From contig RQSC01000678.1 of NCBI GenBank assembly GCA_013416795.1, positions 41,073 through 78,520 on the forward strand: a stretch of 37,448 bases of DNA, written 5' to 3'. The stretch comes from Prasinococcaceae sp. CCMP 1430. Taxonomy: Eukaryota; Prasinodermophyta; Palmophyllophyceae; Prasinococcales; Prasinococcaceae. Positions 4,101 through 37,448 of the stretch are shown here, in pieces. A program made the position numbers and the translations under genes. Positions within the stretch are counted from its first letter, which is position 1, and the number at the start of each line of letters is the position of its first letter. The notes beneath the pieces were generated by a model that had not been told where the DNA came from, ran no database searches, and saw only the letters and a list, made by a program, of their open reading frames with translations.

Positions 4101-7100
4101 GCAGCGCGCGCAGCGCGTCGAGCGCGCCGCCGCTCGCGGCGAGTCCGACAACGCCAACAATGACGATGAGGAAGTCGAGGACGTTCCAGCCATTGCGAAG
4201 GTAGGCATCCTTGTGGGCGACGAATCCCATGGTGATCACCTTGAGCACCATCTCGACAGCGAAAAGCGCCACAAAGAGGACGTCCAAGCCAAAGAGCGCC
4301 GCGCGCAAGGCCTTGCCACTCGACGAGTTGTCGTTGAGCAGCGCGTTGCTGTCGAGCGCGAGCAGCATCGAGCTGATCAGGATGGCGGCGATGATGCCCA
4401 GCTCGAACTTGTTGTGAGACACCACCCTCGCGCAGGCCACGCGCACCGCGTTGTCCGGCGGGAACACGAAGAGGGAGTTTGCCTCCGGCACGAGGCTAGA
4501 CAGGAGCTCATCGATTGAGCGCTCTGTCTGCGACGCGTTCGACGCGTTCGACTCAGACAACAAGCGGCGAAGTGACGGGCCGCCGGGCTTGTCCGAGAAG
4601 CTCTGGCTCCTGGGAATTGAGTTGGCGTCACCCTTGGCGCTCGGAGAAGCCTTGCTCACCTCGGACGATGCCAGCTTGGCGTCCTCCTCGTCCTCGCCCT
4701 TGACGTCGTCCTCGTCCTCGTCATCGTCGTCGTCGTCGGCGGCAAAATTGTCTAGCAGGATCGCCAGGAAGAGGTTGAGGATGATGTAATTGCCGATGGA
4801 GAAGAGCAGCAGGAAGTAGAGCGCGAGCGCGTCGGACGTGGCGTACATGCCGTCATACATGACCTCGTTCCAATTCTCCCCGGTGAGCACCTGGAAGATG
4901 GTGATGATCGACCAGTAGACATCGTCGAAGTTGTGCCGCGGGCGGTAGGGCCGGCCCACGTAGCGCATGGCGGCGATCTCGAAGACATCGCCGTCACCGT
5001 CCTTCTCGCCCGCGAACATCATGCAGCCTTCGACGCCATCCGCGCGGCGGTCGGATACGAGGCTGGCGACGTCTGGAGAAAACGTCACGGTTGCGCGCTG
5101 CTGGGTGTTCAGGCCGGCGTAGATGTCGCCGGCGAGGAAAACGTCGCAGGGTTCAGTTGCGAGCCCGAACGTGCAGTCGAATTTGGACGCACAAGCGACG
5201 CCGGCGTCGTCGACGGACGCGTAGCACTCTCTGTGGTCCGAGCACTTGCCTCCGCCACTGAGGAAAGCAGGCACGCCTTGCACCGCGCCTCCTGGGGGGC
5301 ACATTTGGCCGCCATCGTCACAGAACTCGTAGCGGTAGCCGAAGAGCTGCATCCCGAGCAGGGCAAAAACGAAGATGAAGAGCACCAGGATGAGGCTGAG
5401 GTACGTCACCGAGGCCACGCTCCTGAAGACGGTGGTGATGATCGAGTTGAGCTCTTTCCACGACCGCGCGAGCTTGAAGACACGCAGCAGGCGGAAGGCG
5501 CGCAGCACGGAGAACATGCCGCCGCCGCCCGAGCCGCTCGCCAAGGTGACGACAATCTCCACGATTGACAGCACCACGATGACGCCGTCGAAGACATTCA
5601 TGGGGTCCTTGCGGTAGCCGCCCGGGCCGAGCGCGGTGATCTTCAGGACCATCTCGACGGCGAACGCCGCCGTCAGGATGTAGTTAATGGCGTCGAAGGC
5701 AGTGAACATAGCATCGGGCATGCCGTCGAACTCGGCCGCCATGACTATGGTGTTGATGACTATGAGGGCGACGATGACGTACATGAACGACTCGTGCTCG
5801 ACGATGCTCTGGCAGGTGCGCACAAGCTTGCTCGAGCTCTGCACGGGAACATCGCCGGGCATGCGCCCACCGTTGTCGAACGCCTTGGCATCGCTGGTCA
5901 CCTTTTTATCACCAGCGTTGTCCTGAGCGGACTCCGCTTCTTCGTCGTCGTCGCGCCGGGTGAAGTACAGGTACAGCACAGCCAGCGCCAGGTTGATGGC
6001 GTAGAACGAGCCGACGATAATCAGGAAAAGGAAGTAAATCCATACCCAGGGGCTCTTGCCGTCCTGCAGGTCGTACATCACGTCGGTCCATCCCTCCATC
6101 GATACGCACGTGAAGATCGTCAGCCACGCCCACAGGATGTTGTCAAACGAGATGGCGTTGTGCTTCGGGTTCTCGCCGCGCACGCAGGTCAGCTGCACGC
6201 CGTCGCCATCCCGCGGACACACGCGCCCCGCGCCACTCCTTCCGCTGTACGACGCCTTGCCCCACTCGTCCAGCCCCTCCCACGGGCCCTCGACCACTCC
6301 CGCATCCTTCAGGAGGTCCCACTGTGCCTCGCGCGCGGCCTCGACGTCCTTGGCTTTGCCACCGGCGGCCTTGATCACCTCCAGCCACTCGCACGCCCCG
6401 CCTGCCCCACCAGCGTACGCGAGCGCCTCCTCAGAGCACAGGTGCGGGTGCTGCGCATACAGGGCGGCGAGGTCCCGCTCTTCGTAGTCACCCATCTCGA
6501 GAGGCATTGGGTACATCGGCCCCGAGCACAGGTCGCCCTCGGGGTCCTCGAGCACGTACGTGAGCAGGCCCGTGGCGGTGTCAAAGCCCTCGTAGCCGCA
6601 CCTGTTGCGCATGCGCTCCGCAAAGGACTGGATGCCCACGATGCCCAGTATGAAGAACAGGAAGCCGCAGAGCAGCAGCACGTTCCCGAGCATGGGAAGC
6701 GAGCTCATGAGCGTCACCACGAGCTTTCGCAGCCCCTCGACAGAGGTGAGCGTGCGCAGCGGGCGGAGCACGCGCACGGTGCGAATGGACGTGTAGTTGC
6801 CGATGAGTCCACTGCTCGCGATGATGCCCAGCAGGACCACCAGAAAGTCCATCACGTTCCAGGGGTCGCGCAGGTAGGCACCCTTGCCCAGGAAGAAGCC
6901 CATGCCCAGGACCTTGAGCATCATCTCAATGACGAAGAGAGGCGTGAAGACCCACTCGCTCACAGCGAGGAACTTCCCCAGCCGGCTGCTCTCAAAGTTT
7001 GGCGCGTTCGAGCCCATTGCCAGCGTGATGCAATTGAGGAGGATGAGCAGCAGGATGGCGTTGTCGAAGAGCTTCGAGACGATCGCGCGCATAGCAGCCA

Positions 7101-7419
7101 CCCGCACAGGGTTGCCCTTCGTGAAAACGAACAGCGAGCGCTCCGAGAAAGTAGACACGCGCTTGATGCCCTGCGGCGTGAATGACTTGATCGTCGCCTC
7201 CGTCATGTCGCCCAATTGTATTCGCCAGTCAACCCCTTCACTGCCGGCGTCGCCGCCGCTGTCACCGCCGCTGTGCTGCGAAGGGTCACCGGCGCTCGAG
7301 CCGTTGGAGCCGCCCCCCACGGCGAAGGGCCCCACAGCATCGCCGCCGCCGCCCGCGCCAGCCTCAGCGTCCGCACCGCCCGCCTCCTTGGCAGGCGGCA
7401 TCCACGCGTCCTCGGCCAT
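1180..7419 (-). CDS. Four-domain voltage-gated calcium channel alpha subunit (Cav-like)
   Basis: A pore-forming plasma- or flagellar-membrane channel of 2079 residues with four repeats of six helices in one uninterrupted exon. Each S4 shows Arg/Lys every third residue: RTVRVLRPLR (domain I, near residue 215), LRAFRLLRVFK (II, near 640), LRALRTFRALRPLR (III, near 1108), LLRVFRVARIFR (IV, near 1588). The pore loops read SMEGWTDVMYD, TGENWNEVMYD, TLEMFLDTMYQ and TGESWNGIMWD, so the filter is EEEE, the known signature of Ca2+ rather than Na+ selectivity. After IVS6 comes the Cav EF-hand-like region (FIEVWQELDTEG then EPPLGI) and an IQ-like calmodulin site (VQAAVRGFLTRYK, near residue 1999). The II-III linker is very acidic. 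I chose the ATG at 7417-7419 (MAEDAW; A at -3, G at +4) because the open frame upstream has no earlier ATG. Ion selectivity is inferred from the filter only. Confidence 0.93.
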   Translation of the reverse strand: MAEDAWMPPAKEAGGADAEAGAGGGGDAVGPFAVGGGSNGSSAGDPSQHSGGDSGGDAGSEGVDWRIQLGDMTEATIKSFTPQGIKRVSTFSERSLFVFTKGNPVRVAAMRAIVSKLFDNAILLLILLNCITLAMGSNAPNFESSRLGKFLAVSEWVFTPLFVIEMMLKVLGMGFFLGKGAYLRDPWNVMDFLVVLLGIIASSGLIGNYTSIRTVRVLRPLRTLTSVEGLRKLVVTLMSSLPMLGNVLLLCGFLFFILGIVGIQSFAERMRNRCGYEGFDTATGLLTYVLEDPEGDLCSGPMYPMPLEMGDYEERDLAALYAQHPHLCSEEALAYAGGAGGACEWLEVIKAAGGKAKDVEAAREAQWDLLKDAGVVEGPWEGLDEWGKASYSGRSGAGRVCPRDGDGVQLTCVRGENPKHNAISFDNILWAWLTIFTCVSMEGWTDVMYDLQDGKSPWVWIYFLFLIIVGSFYAINLALAVLYLYFTRRDDDEEAESAQDNAGDKKVTSDAKAFDNGGRMPGDVPVQSSSKLVRTCQSIVEHESFMYVIVALIVINTIVMAAEFDGMPDAMFTAFDAINYILTAAFAVEMVLKITALGPGGYRKDPMNVFDGVIVVLSIVEIVVTLASGSGGGGMFSVLRAFRLLRVFKLARSWKELNSIITTVFRSVASVTYLSLILVLFIFVFALLGMQLFGYRYEFCDDGGQMCPPGGAVQGVPAFLSGGGKCSDHRECYASVDDAGVACASKFDCTFGLATEPCDVFLAGDIYAGLNTQQRATVTFSPDVASLVSDRRADGVEGCMMFAGEKDGDGDVFEIAAMRYVGRPYRPRHNFDDVYWSIITIFQVLTGENWNEVMYDGMYATSDALALYFLLLFSIGNYIILNLFLAILLDNFAADDDDDDEDEDDVKGEDEEDAKLASSEVSKASPSAKGDANSIPRSQSFSDKPGGPSLRRLLSESNASNASQTERSIDELLSSLVPEANSLFVFPPDNAVRVACARVVSHNKFELGIIAAILISSMLLALDSNALLNDNSSSGKALRAALFGLDVLFVALFAVEMVLKVITMGFVAHKDAYLRNGWNVLDFLIVIVGVVGLAASGGALDALRALRTFRALRPLRMASRATGIKVIVNALFKAIPAIGNVLLVCALFYLIFGILGLNLLLGRLRYCGFDCGDDIWHVAQINGMSLPDSFGKCGESLEVDDFPMLGPRAGKLDVPAALYPPGFVDADGGPLGLQPMELDKDFCEIPSMPNVAPFTDLPEFAGSKYYALAWWAQNGFEVRSGVACAPDAEGREKASCIVHTDMVAARALFEVAFGDDADGFAAAWALWTDSGVNAVESPAAAAMVTHAASLDYYNLPTSWNNRDKHFDNIFASILTLFEMATLEMFLDTMYQGIDSTGSTTQPIRDTNPALALYFASFIIIGSFFVMNLFVGVTIDKFNEMKHKSDDGVSVFLSSEQQAWVNIQRIISGVKPLVRLSPPDGEWRARTFHVVQSDAFDGFIMSCIMANIVFMSMRTADMTDEWVAVLFWANFVFTTIFFLEMVFKIWALGPRNYFGNPWNKFDFVVVQFSIIGLCLDAFTGGGIPVVSLLRVFRVARIFRLVPRAKGLKTLFHTLLFSLPALVNVGSVLLLFFFIYSIMGMNLFGSVRYGENLNRYANFRDFPAAMMTLFRMATGESWNGIMWDAMVTQECHSLSEAYYQLDYTMPQVSGDGTIVDVDLVLSPLKCPVDALFPRGIAQQATSAVASFASAAAVNAALEVKYGADAPPTCEPYDDDDTGLRWLRLTLADGTICERVDQTAEEVYFDSSSPCIQMAREWYGSRAVENRCTPWEGAAILYFSSFVVVCALIVLNLVIGVILDEIIASSDAETLPVVPAHMDRFIEVWQELDTEGSYFIKRRLLPKLITRLEPPLGIRGTGVSSSTLMSMLRHLDISVHNGKINFHETLYSLAARVAAHPLPTTVEQEVRIKILKKLDYFKVSAQAETEYTAGHYHAAEYVQAAVRGFLTRYKVHTTQAERGGVEARGGALEVVDAENANALAPDGEVAARLAEEAARAQAARAEDVLAATPATPSGVLPTLDNR

Positions 7420-8935
7420 CGTGGCTCTGTGAACGTCCGCGCCAGCGCTTGTCGCCGGCTCCCACACCCCCGTCCCCGGACCGCAGCCCGTTGCGCTAAA
7501 GCTTCGGCCTGGGAGACATCGGTTCGCTCCGGCCTGTGCGCGTGCCGGCGCGGCGCAGATGGCGGGTCAGCGTCGTCCACGCACGGAGCGCTACCACGCA
7601 GAGGCATTGCGCGGCGGCGAGTGCGATGCTGCCAGCTACGTGCACGCGTCGCCATCCCCAGCCACGTCAGGCATCTCGCGCGGCGCGCGGAGGATGCGCG
7701 GCGCAGCGCCGCGGACACGCGCCCTCGCGGCGTTCGCGCATCCGCGCGCCTCGGGATAAAAAAAAATGCCTTCGGCTCGGCGCCGGCTGGCGGCGGCACA
7801 GCCAGCGCGCTGCTCGCCCACCTGCCCCCTCCCCGCACGCGCGCGCGGGCGTGAAGCGCGGCTGAGGGGTCTGCGGAGTCACCCGCGCCGAGGGAAATGA
7901 CATAATGCGAGGGTCCGTTCCCCTCGCCCCCACTGACCACGCACGCCTCTCGCCCCCTGAGTACACAGCGGGGGAACCAAAAAAAAAATGCAGCGACGAG
8001 GTCAACGCCGCCGGCGTGCGGCCCGCGTGCTCCGCGAGGCTCGCGAGCGAGCTCCCGCGGTGGTGGGGCGGGCGGCGATGAAATACAGGGGGGTCGATTG
8101 CGCGCCCCACCGCGCGCCGCGAGCCCCGACCTCGGCGCCGCCGCAGCGGCAGGTGCCTCAACTGCTGCGGGCGTGCCGCTGGGCCGAACGGGGCCAAAAA
8201 AAAAAAAGGGGGGGGGGACCCCACCCCACCCACCTGCCGCGCGGCGCGCGGTGTGGGGCGCCCGCTGCGACGCCTATTCCGGTCCGCGCGGCGCGCGTGT
8301 TGAACGCAGCCCCCATCAAATCGCATGCGCCTTCGCGCGTACCCGCGTTTCGGTACGGGCGATTCTCCCATCAAATCGCATGCGCCTTCGCGCGTACCCG
8401 CGTTTCGGTACGGGCGATTCTCCCATCAAATCGCATGCGCCTTCGCGCGTACCCGCGTTTCGGTACGGGCGATTCTCCCATCAAATCGCATGCGCCCGCG
8501 GGCGCGCGCGCGTTTCGGTACGGGCGATTCTCCCATCAAATCGCATGCGCCCGCGGGCGCGCGCGCGTTTCGGTACGGGCGATTCTCCCATCAAATCGCA
8601 TGCGCCTGCGGGCGCGGTGCGTTTCGGGACGGGCGATTCGCCCGCGCCGCCGCGCGCGCCCGCCCTGCCACGCGGGCAGAAAAAAACGTGCGGACGCGCG
8701 CGCAAATGCGCGAATCTCCGCGGAATTCGCGCGAGGTACGTACTGAGTGCGCGGGGAAGCGCGGCGGTCGCGCCGCGCCCGCGGCCCCACGCCTCCCGCC
8801 CCCTTCCCCTTCTTGCCTGGAAGGGAGCGTGCCACACGTCGGGCGCGAGGAGCCCCTCCTGCCCGCCGCCCCGCTCTGCCACGCCACGCCACGCCACGCG
8901 CGCGCGACTGCGCGACCGTGGCAGCGGCCGCCGCC
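7420..8935. other. Divergent intergenic region between channel and DUF1295 gene
   Basis: About 1.5 kb that presumably holds both promoters. It has short A runs (about 7757-7765, 7979-7988 and 8195-8207, the last running straight into a G run) and a six-copy 55-bp tandem repeat (listed separately). Several long open frames cross it, but they lack family similarity and continue through a repeat whose unit is not a multiple of three, so I read them as GC-driven and non-coding. Confidence 0.7.
8314..8643. repeat. 55-bp direct tandem repeat, six copies
   Basis: Copies start with CATCAAATCGCATGCG at 8314, 8369, 8424, 8479, 8534 and 8589, exactly 55 bp apart. The flanking constant parts are CGTTTCGGTACGGGCGATTC and the start motif. 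Copies 1-3 share one variable core (CTTCGCGCGTACC), copies 4-5 another (CCGCGGGCGCGCG), and copy 6 is a diverged version (CTGCGGGCGCGGTG) ending in GGGACGGG. This grouping suggests stepwise duplication. Position between two divergent genes allows a regulatory role, which is speculation. Confidence 0.95.
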
Positions 8936-19972: not shown

Positions 19973-21196
19973 TCACAGGCGCGTGCGCTTCAGCAGCATA
20001 CGCCTGTCGCCGTTCTCAGTGTCGTCTTCGCCATCGTCCTCGTCACCCTCTTCATTTCCGCCTCCTCCTCCTCCTCCTCCTCCGCCTTCACCTCCTCCGC
20101 CGCCGCCCTCGCCTCCTCCTCCGCCGCCGCCCTCGCCTCCTCCTCCGCCGCCGCCACCGCCATCGTCGTTGTCGTCGTCCTCGTCACCTTCTTCGCCTTC
20201 GCCTCCTCCTCCTCCTCCTCCCTCGCCTCCGCCTCCTCCTCCCCCTCCTCCTCCTCCTCCGCCTCCTCCTTCGCCTCCTCCGCCTCCTCCTTCGCCTCCT
20301 CCTCCGCCTCCTCCGCCTCCTCCTCCGTTCGAGACGCATTCCTTGTTCCACCAAGTGTACGGCCCTTGGGTTCCGGTCTCGTCGATCGGATCGGCAACGC
20401 CCGAGGCCATCACGCGCTGCACGAAGCAAGACCCATCGCCTTCTTCGCCTTCGTCCTCGTCCTCAAGGTCGAGAATGAGCACGTACGAAAGTGGGCCTAT
20501 TCCGTCTTTGAAACTCTCGTCCTTGGGGAACGTCTGCTTGCATATCGCCTTGACGTCGTCGCCGTCGAGCCCGTCGTCAAACCCGTCGTCGTTATCGTCG
20601 CGGTCTGCGATCACGCACGCGAACCAGCCCAGTCCGACGCCGTCGTCGATCATCTGCCGCGTGCCGCGCACGCGCAGATGCGCATATCGCGCACATATTC
20701 GCACGCGCACACGTGCATCGCGCGGATTGTGTCTGTGTCAGCATTTCGAGCGCAAAGCACGCAACGCTCGTAACGCTCATACCGAGCGTTTCGCTGTGTG
20801 CCCTCCATCCAGTGGGCCTCCACGCGCGGAGCAGGGTGCAGTCGCCCCCAGTGGGCGGGTACGCAACGCACTCGCGTGCGCTCGCATCGCATTCTACACG
20901 CGACGAGGCGGACACACCTGGAAGCCGAAGATGTACGGCTCGGTGAGCCACGCCATCGTCATGGTAAGGCCCTCAGGTACTGGGCCGTCGGGCTGCTGGA
21001 CGACGGGGGGCGTCAGGCTGCCCGAGTTGGTGGGCGTCTGCAAGAGGATGGTAAGCCCGGCTCTCTCCGAGGGGGAGTAGGAGTCGCAAAAAGTCAAGTT
21101 CTGGCAGTCAGAGCGCACTCCGCGCGCGCCTCCCACGAGCGCGAGCACGCCCGCCAGGGCGAGCGCGCGCAAAGCACCATCCGTGCCGGGGGCCAT
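19973..21196 (-). CDS. Secreted acidic protein, tandem copy A, unrecognised family (2 exons)
   Basis: Exons 20918-21196 and 19973-20653, joined across a 264-bp GT-AG phase-0 intron, give 319 residues. The start MAPGTDGALRALALAG (ATG at 21194-21196, A at -3 and G at +4) begins a signal peptide ending near RGVRS. The mature part has DCQNLTFCDSYSPSERAG, a Pro/Thr stretch, TMAWLTEPYIFGFQ, then after the junction MIDDGVGLGWFACVIADRDD, a run of Asp/Gly repeats, KAICKQTFPKDES, and an acidic segment before CFVQRVMASGVADPIDETG and YTWWNKEC. A poly-Gly/Glu stretch of about 90 codons separates this from the tail GDRRMLLKRTRL. The splice model is supported by copy B, which conserves the same junction. 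Cysteine pairs and the signal peptide suggest an extracellular domain. I recognise no family. Confidence 0.75.
20056..20332 (-). repeat. Trinucleotide microsatellite encoding poly-Gly/Glu in copy A
   Basis: A CTC/CCT/CCG-rich trinucleotide tract on the + strand, read on the - strand as long Gly runs broken by single Glu residues, inside the last exon of copy A. The paralogous exon in copy B has only a short SASGTTDNG stretch at this point, so the tract is an expansion specific to copy A. The tract keeps the reading frame. Confidence 0.9.
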
Positions 21197-21774
21197 GTTG
21201 TTCTGCAGTCGTGTCCGCGGCCTCTGCGTGGTGGTGGTTGCTCCAAGGCCGCGGTGTGGCGCGCGCGCGTGGGTGGAGCGCTCTTCCCATTCCCCGCGCC
21301 CCGCCCGCCGCGCCTCAGCGGCGCCACCCCACGCGCTGGTCACGCGCTGGTGTGCTCGAGTCACGCGCGCGCCGTTGTGCGCTGCCCGCATCGATGCCAC
21401 GTAAGCATCGTATTCGAGCTGCTGTCAAGCGCCAGGGCTGCGCCATTGTGTGGGAGGCCCCACGAAGACCAACGTTGAAAAAAATCGCCACCACGTACCC
21501 ACGCAATACTACCAGCGCTCGGTGTGAAATTCATCTAAAGACAATTGGGTCGAATGACAGCGCGAACACGTTGTCGACGTGCGTTGACGATTATCTCACA
21601 TCACATTGCAGCACTTGGATGCATTACATTACATAACCATAACTCTAGTACCGTACATGCTTTTTTGCTTATGGCGAGGTGAAGTCCTTGATGACCCCCT
21701 CGAAGTCGTTGGTATGGCACGCTGATCTCAACAGGCCTGTCTCGCCCAGTGCGTCGGCGACAACGGCGGCCTCC
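21197..21774. other. Intergenic region between duplicate genes A and B
   Basis: The first 200 bp or so (to about 21400) are homologous to sequence upstream of copy B (22838-23045), so the duplication includes 5' flanking DNA. Then follows a distinctly AT-richer stretch (about 21475-21680), the lowest GC in this part of the window, with no open frame of note. Confidence 0.6.
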
Positions 21775-22837
21775 TCACATGCGCGCACGCTTCAGGAGCA
21801 TGCGCCTGTCGCCACCGTTGTCGGTCGTGCCGGAGGCGGAGTCACATTTCTTGTTCCACCACGTGTACGGCCCTTGCGTTCCGCTCTCGTCGATCGGATC
21901 GGCCACGCCGCTAGCCATGACGCGCTGGACGAAGCAAGTCTCCTCTCCTTCGTCTTCTTCCTCCAAGTCCAGAATCAACGTGTACGAGAGTGGGCCGATG
22001 CCATCCTGCGAATGAACGACGCGCGAGGCAGCACGCGCGAGGTGAGGATGGGCGAGCGGCCGGCGTCAGCGCCAAATCGCAGAACGCCGACAGCGAGGGA
22101 GCCAACCATGCGAGTCTGCTCGGCCCCGCTGGCGAGCGAGCGAGTGCAGCGCAGAGCATTCGCGCGCAGAGTATTCGCGCACGTGCCTTGTAGCTCTCGT
22201 CCTTGGGGAACGTCTGCTTGCATATCGCCTTGACGTCGTCGCCGTCGAGCCCGTCGTCGAACCCGTCGTCGTCGTCGTCGCGGTCTGCGATCACGCACGC
22301 GAACCATCCCAGTCCGACACCGTCGTCGATCATCTGCCGCGTGCCGCGCACGTGCAGATGCGCAAGCGGCCACACCGCGCACATTTTTGCGCACGCGTGC
22401 GCGCGTCAGCATGCTGAGCGTTGGGCGCGTCCCCTCCACGCGTGGGCAGACGTAGGTAGTCGCATTGAGTGGGCGGCCACGCAACGCGCGCGCGTGTTCA
22501 TCGCGCGCGCTCACGCCGCGATCTACCCAAGTCGAGGCGGACACACCTGGAAGCCGAAGATGTACGGCTCGGTGAGCCACGCCATGGTCATGGTCAGGCC
22601 CTCTGGCACTGGGCCGTCGGGGGACTGCACGACGGGGGGGGTCAAGTTACCCGAGTTCGTCGGTGTCTGCAAGAGGATGGTGAGCCCGGCTCTCTCCGAG
22701 GGGGAGTAGGAGTCGCAAAAGGTCACGTTCTGGCAGTCGGCGCGCACTCCGCGTACGCCGCCGGCCAGCGCGAGCACGCCTGCTAGGGCGAGCGCGCACA
22801 AGGCACCATCCCTGCCGTGGCGGTCGCTGGGGGCCAT
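21775..22837 (-). CDS. Secreted acidic protein, tandem copy B, unrecognised family (3 exons)
   Basis: Paralogue of copy A, 222 residues. Exons: 22547-22837 (signal peptide starting MAPSDRHGRDGALCALALAG, then DCQNVTFCDSYSPSERAG to EPYIFGFQ), 22187-22333 (MIDDGVGLGWFACVIADRDD to FPKDESYK) and 21775-22005 (DGIGPLSYTLILDL to LLKRARM). Intron 1 (22334-22546) is GT-AG at the same site as in copy A. Intron 2 (22006-22186, 181 bp) is absent from copy A, where the two coding parts join directly as FK/DG; it begins GC and ends AG. Without intron 2 the frame does not reach the conserved C-terminus. The Gly-rich expansion of copy A is missing. Differences are mostly conservative, which suggests both copies are or were under selection. 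Family and function unknown. Confidence 0.72.
22006..22186 (-). other. GC-AG intron unique to copy B
   Basis: On the - strand the junction reads AAG/GCACGT at the 5' side and TTCGCAG/GA at the 3' side. Removing exactly 181 bp restores the uninterrupted reading seen in copy A. A CTGAC branch-point-like motif lies upstream of the acceptor. No GT donor gives the same in-frame join. Confidence 0.75.
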
Positions 22838-23224
22838 GGTCGCCTCGCTCTGCAGTCGAGTCGCCTCTGCGGTGTGTGTTCGTGGTGATGCGTGGTGGTG
22901 GTCGCTCCAAGGCCACGGTGTGGCACGCGCATGTGGGCGGAGCGCCTCTCCCCCAGGCTCGCCCCCCGCGCCCTGGCGCTGGGCTACAGAACCCCACGCG
23001 CTCGACACGCGCGCGCGCTGCGGGCTGCCCGCATCGACGAAACGTTGCCACTGCTCGCTGCTGTCACACGTGCAAAATTGACGTATTTTTTGTTGATGGG
23101 TGTGATTGTCTGCCAGGTAGCCTGCGTTCAGCCAGTCCGAACTACGAGCGACACAATGACACCTTGACCAATACTTTTTTCACATCGTCCGGTCCATTTA
23201 AAGGCAGTGTGAGTGTACTAAGAC
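22838..23224. other. Intergenic region upstream of copy B
   Basis: The part up to about 23045 is homologous to the 5' flank of copy A. The remainder is AT-richer and leads to the 3' end of the methyltransferase gene. It should contain the copy B promoter. No gene seen. Confidence 0.55.
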
Positions 23225-24184: not shown

Positions 24185-24967
24185 CGCAGGAGCGCAAAAT
24201 GCCCAATGCGCGCACGAACTGCTGTATCGCGTGACATTGTTGGTGCAAAGAAAGACACCACTGCGACGCGACCCCCCATAAAAAGAAACGCAGGAAGTGA
24301 TTTTTGGGGGCGCTCCGCGTCTTTTGACGTCACAACGAATGCTTTCGAATGCGGCACTTGCCAATTTCGGTATCCATAGCCACGTGTTCTCTCACTGCCT
24401 TTTTCCGGCGTCATTTCACGCTGCGAAGTTGCCAACTCGCGAGCTTTGACGGTGGCAAGGCCACATCCTCACCGGTACCAGCTTGCCGATCACGCGCACG
24501 GCCCGACACGATCACAGCCCCCACCCACGGGCACGCCACGCCCACACGCCCCTACACACGCACGCGCAGGCGCACGAGCACACACGCACGCGCCGACCCG
24601 TGCGCGTGCACACACGCACGCACGCGCACGTGCACGCGCACACGCCAACACCGCCACGCGCCATAGGAAGTCCAAGCCTTACCGTAAGAAGCTTAGTCTG
24701 TCTGGTACCTCGCGCGTTACGCGGGTCCCGTCCCACAAAGAGCATCAAAGTGTGGGGGCGGAGATGCTCCCCCGCCTGGGCACGAGGAAGGGAGTGCATT
24801 CGGAGTCGGNGCGCGCGTGTGGGTGCGGGGTCCCAGCGCGCGGTCGGCGCGGAGGGCGGGCCCTCCGCCCCTCCTGGAGCGCGCGGCGCGCGCCGAACTT
24901 TACGCGCGATCGCCGATCGCGCTTTTCTCGCGCCTTGGGCCGCGGGACACACATTTGCGGCGCGCCA
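24185..24967. repeat. Intergenic region with CACACG/ACGCAC low-complexity tract and one ambiguous base
   Basis: A CA/CG-alternating purine-pyrimidine tract runs from about 24535 to 24655, the kind of sequence that can adopt Z-DNA. A single N is at 24810. The frame of the surface protein is open through here but without its own ATG before 24968. The region probably holds the divergent promoters of the methyltransferase and surface protein genes. Confidence 0.7.
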
Positions 24968-27900
24968 ATGCCGGGGCGGGGCGGCGGCCGTGCCGCGCGG
25001 CGGGCGGTGGCTTTGGCAGGGGGGGTGGCACTGGCCTTACTCGCCGCCGGGGGGCCGCGCGCGGCGCGCGGACAGGGCGACGCCGTGGCGACGCTCGCGC
25101 CTGACGTGCTCGATGGCGGGGCGCGTGTGGACGTGCGGCTTTCGGGGCATGGCAGGGCTGTGACCGGCATCCAGTTTAATCTCGCGAGCTGCGACGGCGA
25201 TGAGCGGGTGGATGTCGAGGCGGCCACAGGGGGGCTCGCAGAGGCGGCCGGCCTGACGTCACAGGTGTCGGGCTCCACCGTTTTGTTCTTTAACTTCAAC
25301 GACGGCGCGATCGAGACGACGGGCGTACTGACGACCCTGTCGGTGCTGCCCGACAACCAGCGCAGTGACGGGTACTGCCTCACTTCGGCGGTTGTCAGCG
25401 CGTCTGATGGGGCCCCCATCGAACTGGATCCGAGTGCTCTGTGTGCCTGCGATGGCTCCTCGGGTGCAACAGGGGCAAACGAGCAAGCGCCACCGCCGCC
25501 TCCGTCGCCCTCCTCGCCGTCGACCGGCCAGCCACCGTCACCGCCGAGCCCACCGCCGAGCGCCGGGGCAGCATCGAATTCGTCAGGCGTCCTGACGCCG
25601 TCGCTCGAGGTGTCTGATGGCGGAAGTCGGGTGGACATTACCCTCGCTGGGCTGAGCTCGGATCTTGGGGGGTTCCAGGCCACCCTCACGTCGTGTGACG
25701 GCGAGCCGGTACCCATCGACAGCGCCTCGGGGGGGGCCGCTGAGCAAGCGGAGATGACGGTGCAGGTCAACAACGCGACTGAGCTTGTGTTCAGTCTCAT
25801 GGGGGCCACAATTCCCGCGAGCAAGGCTAACAACGACGTACTGTCGATACTGGCGATCGCCGACGCGGACGTCCAGGCGGGATACTGCCTGTCGAATGTC
25901 CAGGCAAGCGACACTGTGGGTCGAGCTCTCGACTTCGACGGGTCCGAGCTGTGTCGATGCGATCTCGATGAGCCGAACGCCGGGGCGGGCAGCACTGGCG
26001 AATCGCCACCATCGCCTCCACCCCCCTCGTCACCCCCCTCGCCGCCGAACTCTACAGACGGTTTCATCATCGACGAGGACGTGCGGCTCTTCGTAGGAGA
26101 GCTGACCGACGGTGGCGTGGACGTGGACATCATGAACCCAGATGTGGCAGTGGCTGCCTTGCAATTTACTTTCATCGATCAGGACGGCAACCCACTGACA
26201 GTCGCCAGCGTGGGCCAGGAGGGCGCCGCGGCCGACGCGGCCGTACCTGCCACCGTGAGCGGGGATCTCGTGGCGTTCTTCAGCCTGGGTGGCGGCTCCA
26301 TCCCTGCCGGTGGCCAGCGTCTGCTGGCTCGCGTCGAGTTCGGGAGCGCGAACGGCGTGACCTCGGTGTGCCTTGAGCAGTTCGTGGTCACGTCCGAGAC
26401 CGGCGACGTTCTGACGGCCAGCACCGTGTGCGGCGGCGAGGACAACGGCACGGACGTGCTGGCCAACGTGCGCGCACAGCACCGTGTGTGGCGGCACGCC
26501 GGCCGTCGCGGGCGGCGAGGACAACGGCACGGACGTGCTGGCCAACGTGCGCGCCGAGCCGGTGAGCGACGGCACCTTCGACGTACTGTACCGGTCGAAG
26601 GTGCCGCTGTCGAGCTTCCGATTCGAGCTGCGCACGCTGCTCGGCCAGGACGTGACCTTCGCAAGCGCGATGCCCGAGAGCGGCGCTGCTGGCGATGCAG
26701 GCTTCTCGGTGGTCGTGCGCTCGACGGGCGCCGTGAGTGGCTCGCTACTCACCAGCGACGGCCCGCCCGTCCCCCGGTGGTCGCCGCTGCTGATGCGACA
26801 CGACTGCTGGTAGCGCCACTTGTTGTGGTGCCTGCCGTGCGTCGAGACCGCTGTCGGCCCCATCCTGAGCGCAGAGGACGGCACCTCCGTGGCCGTCGAG
26901 GAGGCGTCGTGCGAGGTCCCCAGCGAGGGCCCCGACGGCCCCATCTCGGTTCCCCCGGGACCTGATGGTGCTGGAAACTTCGAATTCCTGCTGCGACCTT
27001 CTGAGACTGTCGCCGGGAAGATCGACGTGTACTACAGGTCGGATGTTGAGGTGTCCGGGTTCTCTTTCACCTTGCTGAGCGAGGCGGGCACTCCCATCGC
27101 GCTCAATACCACGGTGAGGCCCATCGGCCGCGCTGTCGACAACAACTTTTCAGTCTTCGAGGCGGGCTTCAGTGGGGGCGTCGTGGGACTGTACAGCGGC
27201 CTGGCCAGCCAGGTGCTGCCACAGACAGACTCCGAAGAGGGTGAGCTCCTCTTGGAAGTGTACACCGGGGCGGACGTCGTCGATGCCACCGCGTTGTGTA
27301 TCGCAGAGGACGCCTTGGTGACCATCGCGGCGGCCAACACCACGGGCGACACGACCGTCTCCGCGGGAGTGCCAGACTGCCTGCCGACTGCCGACGTTGT
27401 GCTGTCCACGCCCTCGCCGCGCGCTGTCCTAGGGTCCCTAAACGTGAGCGTCGTCTCCACCGAGGCGATGAGCTCGGTGTTCTTCTACGTGCTCCAGGGC
27501 GGCTCTGGCACCCCGGCCCGCTTCGACAAGAGCAGGAAGGTTGCTGGTCTTGCTGTGGATAGCGGCCTGGTCGTCAACACGCTCGACAGCGGCCTGGTCA
27601 GTGCAACAGCATCGCAGGCGTCCACGAGCGTGCCAGCACAGGCTGTGTCGGCAGAACTCGTTTCGATCCCGGTGGCAGTCCCAGACGGCACTGACCTGTG
27701 CATCGTCGGGGTGCAGGTGACCGGGAAGGCCGGCGATGCGCTGACTACGAGCGTCGTCAGTTCGAGTTTTTGCGACGGCCTCGTGCCACCCACAGTTGCG
27801 TCTCCTCCTCCACCTGTTTCGTCCCCCCCACCCCCCCCGGTCGTGGTCGCACCGCCTCCGCCGCCTCCTGTGGCCATGCCGCCCCCACCCGTCGCCGTTG

Positions 27901-29129
27901 GGGCGGTCGAGCTCTTCACGCCGACCGCCGTGACTGGCGGCGTGGTGGAGGTGTACTACACGGCCACGGCGCCGATCGGAGGACTGCAAATGCGCGTGGA
28001 AGTAGGCGGCAATGGCGCGACATTTGATTCTGACGCTGCCACAGTCGGTGGAGCGGCTGCCGACGCCTTCGAGGTCGTGACGGGTAGCGGTCTTGGACCG
28101 AACGTGGTGGCCATCGGCACCGGCGATCCGCTGGACAGGGCGGCCGGCCAGTCGCTGCTGCTGTCCCTGAAGCTCGCGAATGGCACCGAGGCCGAGGGCA
28201 CGCTCCCTTGCATCGCCGACGCAATCTTCACCGACACGGAGAATCCGCCGCGTGCCATGGACGTGACGTTGCCGGACTGCGAGCAGCAGCCGCAGGCGAA
28301 CTCACCGCCGCCATCCCCACCCCCGTCACCCCCGCCCGCGCCGGCGATCCCAGAAACCACCGCCGTGGCGTTCAACATGCGCTTCCCCGGTACGCTGGTC
28401 GCGACTGATGCGGATGGCATCGCGGCGAAGTCGGGTCTGCGCGAGGCCTTCGGCGAGCTGTACAGCGTGCCGCCGACGGCCGTGTCGGTGTTCATGTCGT
28501 TCCTGTGCGCAGACGGCGTTGTGCATAGCACACCTCAGCCGTGCACAGGACAGCGATCCGCCGATATCCCTGTCGTGTCAGCCGACGTGAACGTGGGTCA
28601 GGTGGCAGTATCTGCGGCCGAGTCGGTCACGGTCGACGACATCCGCCAGGCGCTCGCGTCCTCTACGAATGCGGGCATGCAAACCCTCGTGGGCACCGCC
28701 GACGCAGACTCGATCGGCGTGTTCGAGGTTGGCACGCCGAGCCCCCCGCTCGAAGCACCGCCCGCAGCTGCGCCTCCACCGCCTCCGCAGGAGGCAAGCG
28801 GCAGCAGCCCTTCGTCGGGCTCCCAAAGTAGTGGCGGGGGTGGGTTGAGCGGCGGCGCGATCGCGGGCATCGTCGTCGGGAGTGTCTTCGGCGCCTTGCT
28901 GCTCGTGCTGCTCACCTGGTGGCTCTGCCAGCGCAGGTCGTCTTCGGCGGCGGCGCGCGGCGGCGGTTCGAACCAGTTCGCGGTCTCATCGCAGCGCTCA
29001 CCCGCGCACGGCGGCAGTGCCTACAACGGCGCAGGTGGCAGCGCGGGCTCGCCGGTCGTCTCCAAGAAAATGTCAAAGAAGCAGCGCGCGGTGATGCGCC
29101 ACCAGGAGTTCGTGGATGAGGAGGTTTGA
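24968..29129 (+). CDS. Multi-module cohesin-like cell-surface protein with C-terminal membrane anchor; disrupted reading frame
   Basis: The ATG at 24968 starts a signal peptide (MPGRGGGRAARRAVALAGG, hydrophobic core, then ARGQ). Successive beta-sandwich modules of about 120-140 residues follow, with patterns such as RVDVRLSG, VTGIQFNL and VLFFNFNDG typical of cohesin-like domains; most end in a Cys pair. Proline-rich linkers (PPPPPSPSSP, PPSPPPPSSPP, PPPPPP; about 25486-25560, 26005-26045, 27790-27900, 28300-28350) separate some. The third and fourth modules (26072-26935) belong to the same repeat family as the array gene from 31454. Near the C-terminus are a domain with VPPTAVSVFMSF, a membrane helix (about 28855-28925, IAGIVVGSVFGALLLVLL) and a basic tail, so it is a type I surface protein. 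NNTT/NATS-type sequons suggest N-glycosylation. The frame shifts by one at a partial duplication (26419-26534), and a TAG at 26811 lies inside a parallel-complement segment. Both may be data artefacts. Cohesin-like is my reading from pattern. Confidence 0.75.
26419..26534 (+). repeat. Out-of-register partial duplication causing a +1 frameshift
   Basis: CAGCACCGTGTG occurs at 26419 and again at 26477 (58 bp apart), and the following GGCGGCGAGGACAACGGCAC at 26432 and 26511 (79 bp apart). Neither spacing is a multiple of three. The first half matches the module variant near 34800, and the second half matches the variant near 32200 with its extra 21 bp. The join changes frame from that of 24968 to that of the downstream modules. 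Confidence 0.85.
26775..26848 (+). other. Parallel-complement segment 1 (complemented, not reversed)
   Basis: All 74 bases are the complement, in the same left-to-right order, of 34232-34305 (e.g. GCCACCAGCGGCGACGACTA becomes CGGTGGTCGCCGCTGCTGAT). Flanks on both sides return to normal module sequence at once. The module's ATC becomes an in-frame TAG at 26811-26813. Confidence 0.95.
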
Positions 29130-30788: not shown

Positions 30789-31453
30789 TTCGCGCCGTGG
30801 TTGTGCTTCTGTCTGCGGTCGCGGGTGCTATCATTTCCCGGCCGGCCGGCTTGGGGGGGTCGTTGACTTCCCTGATACTCTTCCCTGCGGAAGCAAAAGC
30901 GAGGCAGGCAGCAAACCACAAACCACTGCTGAAACCAGCCTGCCAGCCCGGCCGGGGGTGCACACACCCGGTGTCTTTCGATGGTCTCCCCCAGTCAGGC
31001 GCGCCATCGATCGATGCAGACGAACCAAATGCCATCGATGGATCCATCGACGCGTGCGCGAGACTCCCCAGGGGGGATCCCCGCCGCGTGCGTGCGGGCC
31101 TGGTCTGGCCGGGGCAGCCCCAACAACAAACCCAACCAACAACACCAACCAACCAATCGCGTTTGTCACCCAAACGCGAAACGCACCGCCCTGCCGCGGA
31201 TCCGGATCCCAATCCGTCGCCCTCCGACCAAACTTTAGATAGCTCGCCGTAGCTCGCGCCGCGCCCGGCCCGTGGCGCGCTCCCCGCGCGACCGACCAAC
31301 ACCCGGCCAGACATGCAGCCAGCCAGGCAGGCCAGCCGGAGATAAACACGACCACCTCGGGCGTTTTTCCCCCCCTCCCCCTTCTTCTGCCCTGCACATC
31401 CGTGGTGGGTCGTTTTCTTCGTCGCGGGCCTTTTGGGCAGCGGGATCATCGGG
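30789..31453. other. Intergenic or cryptic-exon region between nucleoporin and array gene
   Basis: Clearly lower in GC than its neighbours, with clusters of CCATCGAT/ATCGATGG palindromic words (about 31005-31055) and CCAACCAA/AACAACA words (about 31118-31160). It may hold the nucleoporin's first exon and both promoters. No CCCH pattern was found on the - strand in the frames I read. Confidence 0.5.
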
Positions 31454-34400
31454 ATGCGTGGGAAAATTCAGGCAAGCGGGGATTCTTCATCTTCATCGGC
31501 GCGGCGTGGCTGGGGGGGACCTCGGGGGAGGTGTGGCGGGCCTCTCCTCTGTCCTCTCTCCCGCCCACTGCACGGCGCCCGCGGCGCGCGCGGCACACGC
31601 TGCGCGCGCGCGGCGCAGACCGTGCCTGGCAACGCTGTGCTGACGACCATCGCGGTGAACAACACCACGGACGGCACGCAGCTCTGTGCTGTCGGCCCCA
31701 TCCTGAGCGCAGAGGACGGCACTTCCGTGGCCGTCGAGGAGGCGTCGTGCGAGGTCCCCAGCGAGGTCCCTGGTCAGACCCCCGCCGACAACGCCACCAG
31801 CCCCGACAATGCGACCGACAGCGGCGGCGGCTTCGTCATCGACGAGGACGTGCGCCTCTTCGTGGGAGAGCTGACCGACGGCGGCGTGGACGTGGACATC
31901 ATGAACCCAGATGTGGCAGTGGCTGGCTTGGAGCTCCACTTCATCGATCAGGACGGCAACAAGCTCACCATTGGAAGCGTCGGTGATGAGGGGGCCGCGG
32001 CCGCCGCAAACCTGCCAGCACGTAGCGAAGGGAATCGCGTAACCTTCATCGACCTAGCAGCCGGCACAGCATCCATCCCTGCCGGTGGCCAGCGCTTGCT
32101 TGCTCGCTTCGAGTTCGGGAGCACGAACGGCGTGACCTCGGTGTGCCTTGAGCAGTTCGTGGTCACGTCCGCGACCGGCCAGACTCTAGAGACCAGCACC
32201 GTGTGTGGCGGCACGCCGGCCGTCGCGGGCGGCGAGGACAACGGCACGGACGTGCTGGCCAACGTGCGCGCCGAGCCGGTGAGCGATGGCACCTTCGACG
32301 TACTGTACCGGTCGAAGGTGCCGCTGTCGAGCTTCCGGTTCGAGCTGCGCACGCTGCTCGGCCAGGACGTGAGCTTCGCGAGCGCCGTGCCGGACACCGG
32401 CGCTGCCGGCGACGCAGGCTTCTCGGTGGTCGTGCGCGCGACCGGCGCCGTGAGTGGCCTGCGCCTCGACGGCCCGCCCGTCCCCGCCACCAGCGGCGAC
32501 GACTACGCGGTGCTGACGACCATCGCGGTGAACAACACCACGGACGGCACGCAGCTCTGTGCTGTCGGCCCGATCTTCAGCGCAGAGGACGGCACCTCCG
32601 TGGCCGTCGAGGAGGCGTCGTGCGAGGCTCCCAGCGCCGCCACGAGCGACAACGCCACCAGCCCTGACAATGCAACCGACAGCGGCGGCGGCTTCGTCAT
32701 CGACGAGGACGTGCGCCTCTTCGTGGGAGAGCTGACCGACGGCGGCGTAGACGTGGACATCATGAACCCAGATGTGGCAGTGGCTGCCTTGCAATTTACT
32801 TTCATCGATCAGGACGGCAACCCACTGACAGTCGCCAGCGTGGGCCAGGAGGGCGCCGCGGCCGACGCGGCCGTACCTGCCACCGTGAGCGGGGATCTCG
32901 TGGCGTTCTTCAGCCTGGGTGGGGGCTCCATCCCTGCCGGTGGCCAGCGTCTGCTTGCTCGCGTCGAGTTCGGGAGCGCGAACGGCGTGACCTCGGTGTG
33001 CCTTGAGCAGTTCGTGGTCACGTCCGAGACCGGCGACGTCGTGGAGGCCAGCACCGTGTGCGGCGGCAGCTCGGCCGGCAGCCCGCCGAGCTCGAGCTCG
33101 CCGTTGCCGTGCCTGCACGACCGGTTGCACGCGCGCGAGCCGGTGAGCGACGGCACCTTCGACGTACTGTACCGGTCGAAGGTACCGCTGGCGGGCTTCC
33201 AGTTCGAGCTGCGCACGCTGCTCGGCCAGGAAGTGAGCTTCGCGAGCGCCGTGTCGGACACCGGCGCTGCTGACGCCGCCGGCTTTACGGTGACCGTCGG
33301 TCCGACCGGCATCGTGACTGCTCTTGGCAGCCTGGCCAGTAGCGACCAGCTGATACCGGCCACCAGCGGCGACGACTTGCGACACGACTGCTGGTAGCGC
33401 CACTTGTTGTGGTGCCTGCCGTGCGTCGAGACTGCTGTCGGCCCCATCCTGAGCGCAGAGGACGGCACCTCCGTGGCCGTCGAGGAGGCGTCGTGCGAGG
33501 CTCCCAGCGCCGCCACGAGCGACAACGCCACCAGCCCCGACAATGCGACCGACAGCGGCGGCGGCTTCGTCATCGACGAGGACGTGCGCCTCTTCGTGGG
33601 AGAGCTGACCGACGGCGGCGTGGACGTGGACATCATGAACCCAGATGTGGCAGTGGCTGCCTTGCAATTTACTTTCATCGATCAGGACGGCAACCCACTG
33701 ACAGTCGCCAGCGTGGGCCAGGAGGGCGCCGCGGCCGACGCGGCCGTACCTGCCACCGTGAGCGAGGATCTCGTGGCGTTCTTCAGCCTGGGTGGCGGCT
33801 CCATCCCTGCCGGTGGCCAGCGTCTGCTGGCTCGCGTCGAGTTCGGGAGCGCGAACGGCGTGACCTCGGTGTGCCTTGAGCAGTTCGTGGTCACGTCCGA
33901 GACCGGCCAGACTCTAGAGACCAGCACCGTGTGCGGCGGCAGCTCGGCCGGCTCGGGCGGCTCGAGCTCGAGCGGCAACGGCACGGACGTGCTGGCCAAC
34001 GTGCGCGCCGAGCCGGTGAGCGACGGCACCTTCGACGTACTGTACCGGTCGAAGGTACCGCTGGCGGGCTTCCAGTTCGAGCTGCGCACGCTGCTCGGCC
34101 AGGAAGTGAGCTTCGCGAGCGCCGTGTCGGACACCGGCGCTGCTGACGCCGCCGGCTTTACGGTGACCGTCGGTCCGACCGGCATCGTGACTGCTCTTGG
34201 CAGCCTGGCCAGTAGCGACCAGCTGATACCGGCCACCAGCGGCGACGACTACGCTGTGCTGACGACCATCGCGGTGAACAACACCACGGACGGCACGCAG
34301 CTCTGCGCTGTCGGCCCCATCCTGAGCGCAGAGGACGGCACCTCCGTGGCCGTCGAGGAGGCGTCGTGCGAGGCTCCCAGCGCCGCCACGAGCGACAACG

Positions 34401-37400
34401 CCACCAGCCCCGACAATGCGACCGACAGCGGCGGCGGCTTCGTCATCGACGAGGACGTGCGCCTCTTCGTGGGAGAGCTGACCGACGGCGGCGTGGACGT
34501 GGACATCATGAACCCAGATGTGGCAGTGGCTGCCTTGCAATTTACTTTCATCGATCAGGACGGCAACCCACTGACAGTCGCCAGCGTGGGCCAGGAGGGC
34601 GCCGCGGCGGACGCTGCCCTGTCGCCAACCATCGGCGACGACGGCGTGATCTTCTTCGCCCTTGGCAGCACCTTCACCATTCCCGCGGGGGACCAGCGCC
34701 TGCTGGCCCGCTTCGAGTTCGGGAGCACGAATGGCGTGACCTCGGTGTGCCTGCAGCAGTTCGTGGCGACGTCCGCGACCGGCGACGTTCTGACGACCAG
34801 CACCGTGTGCGGCGGCGAGGACAACGGCACGGACGTGCTGGCCAACGTGCGCGCCGAGCCGGTGAGCGACGGCACCTTCGACGTACTGTACCGGTCGAAG
34901 GTGCCGTTGGCGGGCTTCCAGTTCGAGCTGCGCACGCTGCTCGGCCAGGCAGTGAGCTTTGCGACGGCCATGCCCGAGAGCGGCGCCGCTGGCGACGCTG
35001 ATTTCGTGACGGTCGTGGGCCCGACCGGCGTCGTGAGCGGCCTGCGCCTCATCAGCGACGGCCCGCCCGTCCCCGCGACCAGCGGCGACGTCTACGCGGT
35101 GCTGACGACCATCGCGGTGAACAACACCACGGATGGCACGCAGCTCTGCGCCGTGGGCCCCATCCTGACCGCGGAGGACGGCGACTCCGTGGCCGTCGAG
35201 GAGGCGTCGTGTGAAGTCCCCGACAATGCGACCGACAGCGGCGGCGGCTTCGTCATCGACGAGGACGTGCGCCTCTTCGTGGGAGAGCTGACCGACGGCG
35301 GCGTGGACGTGGACATCATGAACCCAGATGTGGCAGTGGCTGCCTTGCAATTTACCTTCATCGATCAGGACGGCAACCCACTGACAGTCGCCAGCGTGGG
35401 CCAGGAGGGCGCCGCGGCCGACGCGGCCGTACCTGCCACCGTGAGCGGGGATCTCGTGGCGTTCTTCAGCCTGGGTGGCGGCTCCATCCCTGCCGGTGGC
35501 CAGCGTCTGCTGGCTCGCGTCGAGTTCGGGAGCGCGAACGGCGTGACCTCGGTGTGCCTTGAGCAGTTCGTGGTCACGTCCGAGACCGGCCAGACTCTAG
35601 AGACCAGCACCGTGTGCGGCGGCAGCTCGGCCGGCTCGGGCGGCTCGAGCTCGAGCGGCAACGGCACGGACGTGCTGGCCAACGTGCGCGCCGAGCCGGT
35701 GAGCGACGGCACCTTCGACGTACTGTACCGGTCGAAGGTACCGCTGGCGGGCTTCCAGTTCGAGCTGCGCACGCTGCTCGGCCAGGAAGTGAGCTTCGCG
35801 AGCGCCGTGTCGGACACCGGCGCTGCTGACGCCGCCGGCTTTACGGTGACCGTCGGTCCGACCGGCATCGTGACTGCTCTTGGCAGCCTGGCCAGTAGCG
35901 ACCAGCTGATACCGGCCACCAGCGGCGACGACTACGCTGTGCTGACGACCATCGCGGTGAACAACACCACGGACGGCACGCAGCTCTGCGCTGTCGGCCC
36001 CATCCTGAGCGCAGAGGACGGCACCTCCGTGGCCGTCGAGGAGGCGTCGTGCGAGGCTCCCAGCGCCGCCACGAGCGACAACGCCACCAGCCCCGACAAT
36101 GCGACCGACAGCGGCGGCGGCTTCGTCATCGACGAGGACGTGCGGCTCTTCGTGGGAGAGCTGACCGACGGCGGCGTAGACGTGGACATCATGAACCCAG
36201 ATGTGGCAGTGGCTGCCTTGCAATTTACTTTCATCGATCAGGACGGCAACCCACTGACAGTCGCCAGCGTGGGCCAGGAGGGCGCCGCGGCCGACGCGGC
36301 CGTACCTGCCACCGTGAGCGAGGATCTCGTGGCGTTTTTCAGCCTGGGTGGCGGCTCCATCCCTGCCGGCGGCCAGCGTCTGCTGGCTCGCGTCGAGTTC
36401 GGGAGCGCGAACGGCGTGACCTCGGTGTGCCTTGAGCAGTTCGTGGTCACGTCCGAGACCGGCCAGACTCTAGAGACCAGCACCGTGTGCGGCGGCAGCT
36501 CGGCCGGCTCGGGCGGCTCGAGCTCGAGCGGCAACGGCACGGACGTGCTGGCCAACGTGCGCGCCGAGCCGGTGAGCGACGGCACCTTCGACGTACTGTA
36601 CCGGTCGAAGGTACCGCTGGCGGGCTTCCAGTTCGAGCTGCGCACGCTGCTCGGCCAGGAAGTGAGCTTCGCGAGCGCCGTGTCGGACACCGGCGCTGCT
36701 GACGCCGCCGGCTTTACGGTGACCGTCGGTCCGACCGGCATCGTGACTGCTCTTGGCAGCCTGGCCAGTAGCGACCAGCTGATACCGGCCACCAGCGGCG
36801 ACGACTACGCTGTGCTGACGACCATCGCGGTGAACAACACCACGGACGGCACGCAGCTCTGCGCTGTCGGCCCCATCCTGAGCGCAGAGGACGGCACCTC
36901 CGTGGCCGTCGAGGAGGCGTCGTGCGAGGCTCCCAGCGCCGCCACGAGCGACAACGCCACCAGCCCCGACAATGCGACCGACAGCGGCGGCGGCTTCGTC
37001 ATCGACGAGGACGTGCGGCTCTTCGTGGGAGAGCTGACCGACGGCGGCGTAGACGTGGACATCATGAACCCAGATGTGGCAGTGGCTGCCTTGCAATTTA
37101 CTTTCATCGATCAGGACGGCAACCCACTGACAGTCGCCAGCGTGGGCCAGGAGGGCGCCGCGGCCGACGCGGCCGTACCTGCCACCGTGAGCGAGGATCT
37201 CGTGGCGTTTTTCAGCCTGGGTGGCGGCTCCATCCCTGCCGGCGGCCAGCGTCTGCTGGCTCGCGTCGAGTTCGGGAGCGCGAACGGCGTGACCTCGGTG
37301 TGCCTTGAGCAGTTCGTGGTCACGTCCGAGACCGGCCAGACTCTAGAGACCAGCACCGTGTGCGGCGGCAGCTCGGCCGGCTCGGGCGGCTCGAGCTCGA

Positions 37401-37448
37401 GCGGCAACGGCACGGACGTGCTGGCCAACGTGCGCGCCGAGCCGGTGA
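31454..37448 (+). CDS. Array-type cohesin-like surface protein (3' partial; one in-frame TAG)
   Basis: From the ATG at 31454 the frame runs to the window end with one stop, TAG at 33396-33398 inside parallel-complement segment 2. The protein is a chain of a two-part unit of about 291 residues. Part A opens with the VIDEDVRLFVGELTDGGVDV motif and contains FIDQDGNPLTVASVG, an IPAGGQRLLAR block and VCLEQFVVTS, ending CGG. Part B contains DVLANVRAEPVSDGTFDVLY, VPLAGFQFELRTLLGQ, VLTTIAVNNTTDGTQLCAVG and EEASCE, then an NATSPDNATD linker rich in N-glycosylation sequons. Part A and Part B look like paired cohesin-like beta sandwiches. The start is uncertain: residues before 31632 show no clear signal peptide and module homology begins abruptly at 31632, in the middle of Part B. 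A likely secreted or surface glycoprotein by analogy with its neighbour at 24968. Confidence 0.72.
33080..33135 (+). other. Parallel-complement segment 3 (complemented, not reversed)
   Basis: All 56 bases complement 33953-34008 in the same direction (TCGGGCGGCTCGAGCTCGAG becomes AGCCCGCCGAGCTCGAGCTC). Flanks are normal module sequence. The reading frame continues without a stop, but SGGSSSSGNGTDVLANVRA is replaced by SPPSSSSPLPCLHDRLHAR. Confidence 0.95.
33378..33432 (+). other. Parallel-complement segment 2 (complemented, not reversed)
   Basis: All 55 bases complement 34251-34305 in the same direction (ACGCTGTGCTGACGACCATC becomes TGCGACACGACTGCTGGTAG). It ends at the same module position as segment 1 but begins 19 bp later. 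It introduces the only stop (33396-33398) in the array gene. Confidence 0.95.

Follow-up and report, generated by a model that had tools for sequence, protein, structure and literature searches.

The DNA examined here raises the question of how a short segment within a repeated protein-coding module could carry the complement of the ordinary module sequence written in the same order, without the reversal that an inversion would bring. The window, meaning the whole stretch of 37,448 nucleotides that was analyzed, corresponds to positions 41073–78520 of contig RQSC01000678.1. Its end is also the end of the contig, which falls inside a tandem array of modules.

Results

Parallel-complement blocks in one module family

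A first-pass annotation of this DNA had claimed that nucleotides 26775–26848 (segment S1) are the unreversed, or parallel, complement of nucleotides 34232–34305. Base-by-base comparison bears this out at 74/74 positions, with identical bases at none of the 74. When the ordinary sequence is set against 26774–26848, agreement is 0/75 for direct identity, 14/75 for the reversed sequence, 21/75 for the reverse complement, and 75/75 for the complement. The region around S1 (25100–28500) is letter-for-letter equal to the stored genome record. Besides the exact partners given in Table 1, further module copies are near-complements of S1 (32486–32559, 73/74; 35075–35148, 70/74; 31613–31686, 62/74).

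Both edges of S1 had been described as sharp. This description holds for the right edge at 26848, but the left edge may lie at either 26774 or 26775. Base 26774 is complementary to copies of the 34232 type, and it is also the same as the base in the two copies that share the left flank of S1 (alignment lines 32466 and 35055). Because the copies sharing this flank have the same base at 26774, position 26775 is the better start.

Comparison of the module copies in register revealed S2 and S3 as further blocks (Table 1). Thus, the original observation holds and extends further than first described, with three parallel-complement blocks present in one module family. With a 60% identity cut used to count places in the S1 module register, there are eight such places. 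Six of these have the ordinary sequence, one is complement throughout, and the last (33359–33432) is complement from 33378 onward. The right edge of S2 is that of S1 in module register, and S2 starts 19 bases later when counted from 26775. The base that follows this shared edge differs between the two (C versus T). Placement is in register with unchanged flanks for 3/3 blocks. Modules of ~873 bases are common to the gene that contains S1 and to the tandem array, and all three blocks lie within modules of this near-identical array family, which makes for difficult assembly.

Table 1. Features of the parallel-complement locus (window coordinates).
Feature	Position	Strand	Basis or relation
Host gene region: repeated modules, proline-rich spacers, hydrophobic stretch near the C-terminal end	24446..29129	+	Translation by eye
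Out-of-register join, ~26475/26477	26470..26480	+	Copy comparison
S1, 74-base parallel complement of ordinary module	26775..26848 (left edge 26774 or 26775)	+	Sequence comparison
Tandem array, modules of ~873 bases, reaching the contig end	31600..37448	+	Repeat comparison
S3	33080..33135	+	Parallel complement, 56/56, of 33953–34008, 35636–35691, 36509–36564, and 37382–37437
S2	33378..33432	+	Parallel complement, 55/55, of 34251–34305, 35934–35988, and 36807–36861
Ordinary module in S1 register, reference copy	34232..34305	+	Equaled as partner by 35915–35988 and 36788–36861, each 74/74 to the complement of S1

Chance and inversion controls

The first-pass annotation had considered chance negligible and had stated that the relationship is not an inversion, and both statements withstand quantitative comparison. 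The longest parallel-complement run in the window is 75 bases, versus 14–22 (mean 16.1) in 100 windows simulated with a first-order Markov model. Masking S1–S3 reduces the longest such run in the real window to 16. Matches to the reverse complement reach only 21/75 for S1, 7/55 for S2, and 26/56 for S3. The longest exact reverse-complement match anywhere in the window is 17 bases (15–24 in the simulations), and therefore the blocks do not represent an inversion. A mirror repeat was likewise rejected because S1 agrees with the reversed ordinary sequence at only 14/75 positions.

Effects on the host reading frame

The reading frame of the host gene is broken by a shift at ~26476 and by a TAG codon at 26811–26813 inside S1. 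In this frame, the T-I-A-V of the ordinary module is replaced by W-stop-R-H in both S1 and S2, with the same in-frame TAG. S3 changes residues without introducing a stop, such that the in-frame TAG is found in 2/3 blocks. Complementing any of the three blocks back yields the amino acids of the ordinary module. We also considered that the blocks might represent a real coding variant of the module, but this was rejected because the open reading frame is not kept in S1 and S2.

Protein searches for an independent transcript or metagenome copy of the junction, in which the C-terminal portion encoded by the host gene served as query, returned nothing at E ≤ 0.001; each search scored the best 8000 candidates by shared words, and proline-rich words may have crowded these. 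In Pfam searches, no family exceeded the cut-off for the module or the C-terminal proteins, and a search of solved structures with one module gave no match. DNA searches were without a match for 25800–28000 in phages, for 31400–37448 in plasmids, and for S1 alone in plasmids. Other repeats were sought through a reverse-transcriptase family search, which produced one weak match below the cut-off.

A defective join and the contig end

The module that contains S1 also has an out-of-register join, which lies ~300 bases upstream of the block. Before this point (~26475/26477) the sequence follows the 34435–34875 copy, and after it the 32194 copy, with ~79 bases repeated and the frame shifted. The join, lying between two different module types, is probably another assembly defect. 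Together with S1, it places two kinds of damage within ~300 bases.

Position 24810 of the window is a single N, and single N letters also occur in 5/21 other loci examined (L015, 8473; L018, 5773; L020, 2728; L026, 5612; L029, 631). Such isolated letters in otherwise readable sequence are perhaps scars of gap closing.

Parallel complements elsewhere in the genome

When the readable genome was searched with a complete 873-base module in complemented form, matches appeared in only three places, all on the window's own contig: 67846–67920 (S1), 74450–74504 (S2), and 74175–74207 (33 bases of S3), in contig coordinates. S3 was matched over 33 bases only because the query module differs from the S3 type outside these. 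Genome-wide, the same contig accounted for 8/8 of the matches listed for a 401-base stretch around S1 and for 10/10 of those listed for the module protein. Note that the genome-wide match counts are lower bounds and apply to readable sequence only.

Outside the window, 25 loci (four wholly masked) comprising 166,439 readable bases contained no parallel complements. However, this sample could hardly have revealed such a block because it includes only four direct-repeat pairs, and it therefore speaks neither for nor against a general software fault. Locus L025 (contig C100) carries a nearly identical 1-kb direct repeat (6565–7579 and 7693–8707) without a complement block.

Discussion

Origin of the blocks

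The first-pass annotation had favored an error made in building the sequence of a hard-to-assemble repeat, while leaving room for a new kind of sequence change should reads confirm the block. The error is supported indirectly by the presence of three in-place blocks in the array, by the stop codons in two of them, by the mis-join, and by the contig end. The further suggestion that the two repeats could pair as a parallel-stranded duplex finds no support in the present results. The blocks are almost certainly an artefact in all, rather than a real feature, and they very probably arose in the sequence assembly or polishing step. We know of no polymerase or recombination route that yields a parallel complement.

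An error of this kind could arise if, in the near-identical 873-base array, a program swapped short, poorly supported stretches for minus-strand consensus. For a stretch X, the stored minus-strand copy would be its reverse complement. Were this copy then only reversed, or a forward copy only complemented, pasting it would create the exact unreversed complement of X. The omission of one strand step would in this way give, for every block, the correct length and place, sharp edges, and untouched flanks. We infer this missing step, and likewise the program responsible for it.

According to its report, the published genome of Prasinoderma coloniale (whose relationship to the window's organism is considered below) was produced with NextDenovo, Arrow, and NextPolish and comprises 25.3 Mb in 22 chromosomes (PMC7455551). 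The window's assembly comprises 24.5 Mb in 145 contigs and may differ from the published one. Naming NextDenovo as the responsible program is therefore a guess. As described in the available portion of its 2024 account, NextDenovo rebuilds low-score regions, which are typical of repeats, by consensus from chosen subsequences and reinserts them in place; that portion describes no strand error in this step (PMC11046930). In-place reinsertion by NextDenovo would fit sharp-edged blocks of 55–75 bases, and the 2020 version may differ from that of 2024.

Two observations fit less well with an assembly or polishing error. Polishing with reads is expected to remove a wrong block of 74 bases, and survival of the blocks would require that the reads did not map uniquely. 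In addition, S1 and S2 have a common right edge despite the differing next base, which indicates either reuse of one wrong consensus or an edge determined by the sequence.

It is possible, though unlikely, that a later manual or scripted edit outside the assembler, made for example during gap filling or at a submission step, pasted in complemented text. The blocks would then also be an artefact, and the product would be the same as that of an assembler error. Single N letters can remain after gap closing, and their presence in the window and in 5/21 other loci is consistent with such editing. However, these letters adjoin 0/3 blocks, and three separate short hand edits are improbable.

We regard it as extremely improbable that the blocks are real cellular DNA, created by copying in parallel orientation or by an in-place swap of bases between strands, with gene conversion then spreading one block. 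Three exact blocks are far beyond chance, and S2 is nested in S1 with a right edge that is common to the base, as might be expected from such a spread. Nevertheless, established knowledge includes no enzyme for parallel copying or base swapping, 2/3 blocks stop the reading frame, and the array that holds the blocks also shows another mis-join and is cut off by the contig end. Were the blocks real, the antiparallel rule of copying and recombination would be contradicted.

The consulted portions of repeat-finder reports on chloroplast genomes do include complement repeats as a category. The probability that coincidence or a sequence property such as low complexity or skewed composition produced the blocks is nevertheless vanishingly small because the simulated windows (n = 100) reach at most 22 bases and the real window without the blocks 16, both far below 75.

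Comparison with known systems and significance

An assembly or polishing error remains the preferred explanation, and the locus resembles those affected by consensus or strand-orientation errors in tandem repeats in having a near-identical array, a contig end, and a frameshifting join nearby. The usual errors in tandem repeats are collapse, inversion, and indels, whereas the form seen here is an in-place unreversed complement. Among the titles and abstract openings listed by literature searches, none describes an artefact of this form. The complement (C) repeats that REPuter reports in organelle genomes have the same formal relation between two sequences. Such C repeats are generally short and often near-chance matches. 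In contrast, S1–S3 comprise 55–75 exact bases and lie in register inside module copies. Inversion is likewise a strand-related rearrangement, but S1 and the reverse complement agree at only 21/75 positions.

As biology, the blocks are most likely without importance; as a matter of quality control, they are important. To our knowledge, the usual assembly checks target inversions and collapses, and not unreversed complements. Errors of this type, which break gene models, would be exposed by simply comparing repeat copies for complement blocks that lie in register. Here, the affected protein is rich in repeats, has a hydrophobic stretch close to its C-terminal end, and acquires a stop codon.

Other features of the window

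Repeats of other kinds are also present in the window. A tandem array at 8312–8643 has a 55-base unit in 6.1 copies with 95% matches. A direct duplication at 20331–22952 has a spacing of ~1.5–1.7 kb and blocks that are 83–95% identical, and it is adjoined by a long TCC-rich stretch (20057–20326).

The window additionally carries a gene for a four-domain voltage-gated cation channel on the minus strand (1180–7467), which is open over 2095 codons and has four stretches matching Ion_trans. Among the aligned blocks listed, its product agrees with EukProt PRCOL_00003146 at 860/864 and 749/750 residues. We take PRCOL in this name to denote Prasinoderma coloniale, and the likeness of the two channel sequences suggests that the window's organism belongs to this species or is a very close relative. 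Two internal stretches, window residues ~881–943 and 1208–1345, are missing from the shorter PRCOL gene model (P0002). An ENA-sourced channel protein (P0001), which is identical at 2055/2073 residues, has both stretches, and the PRCOL model may therefore contain false introns.
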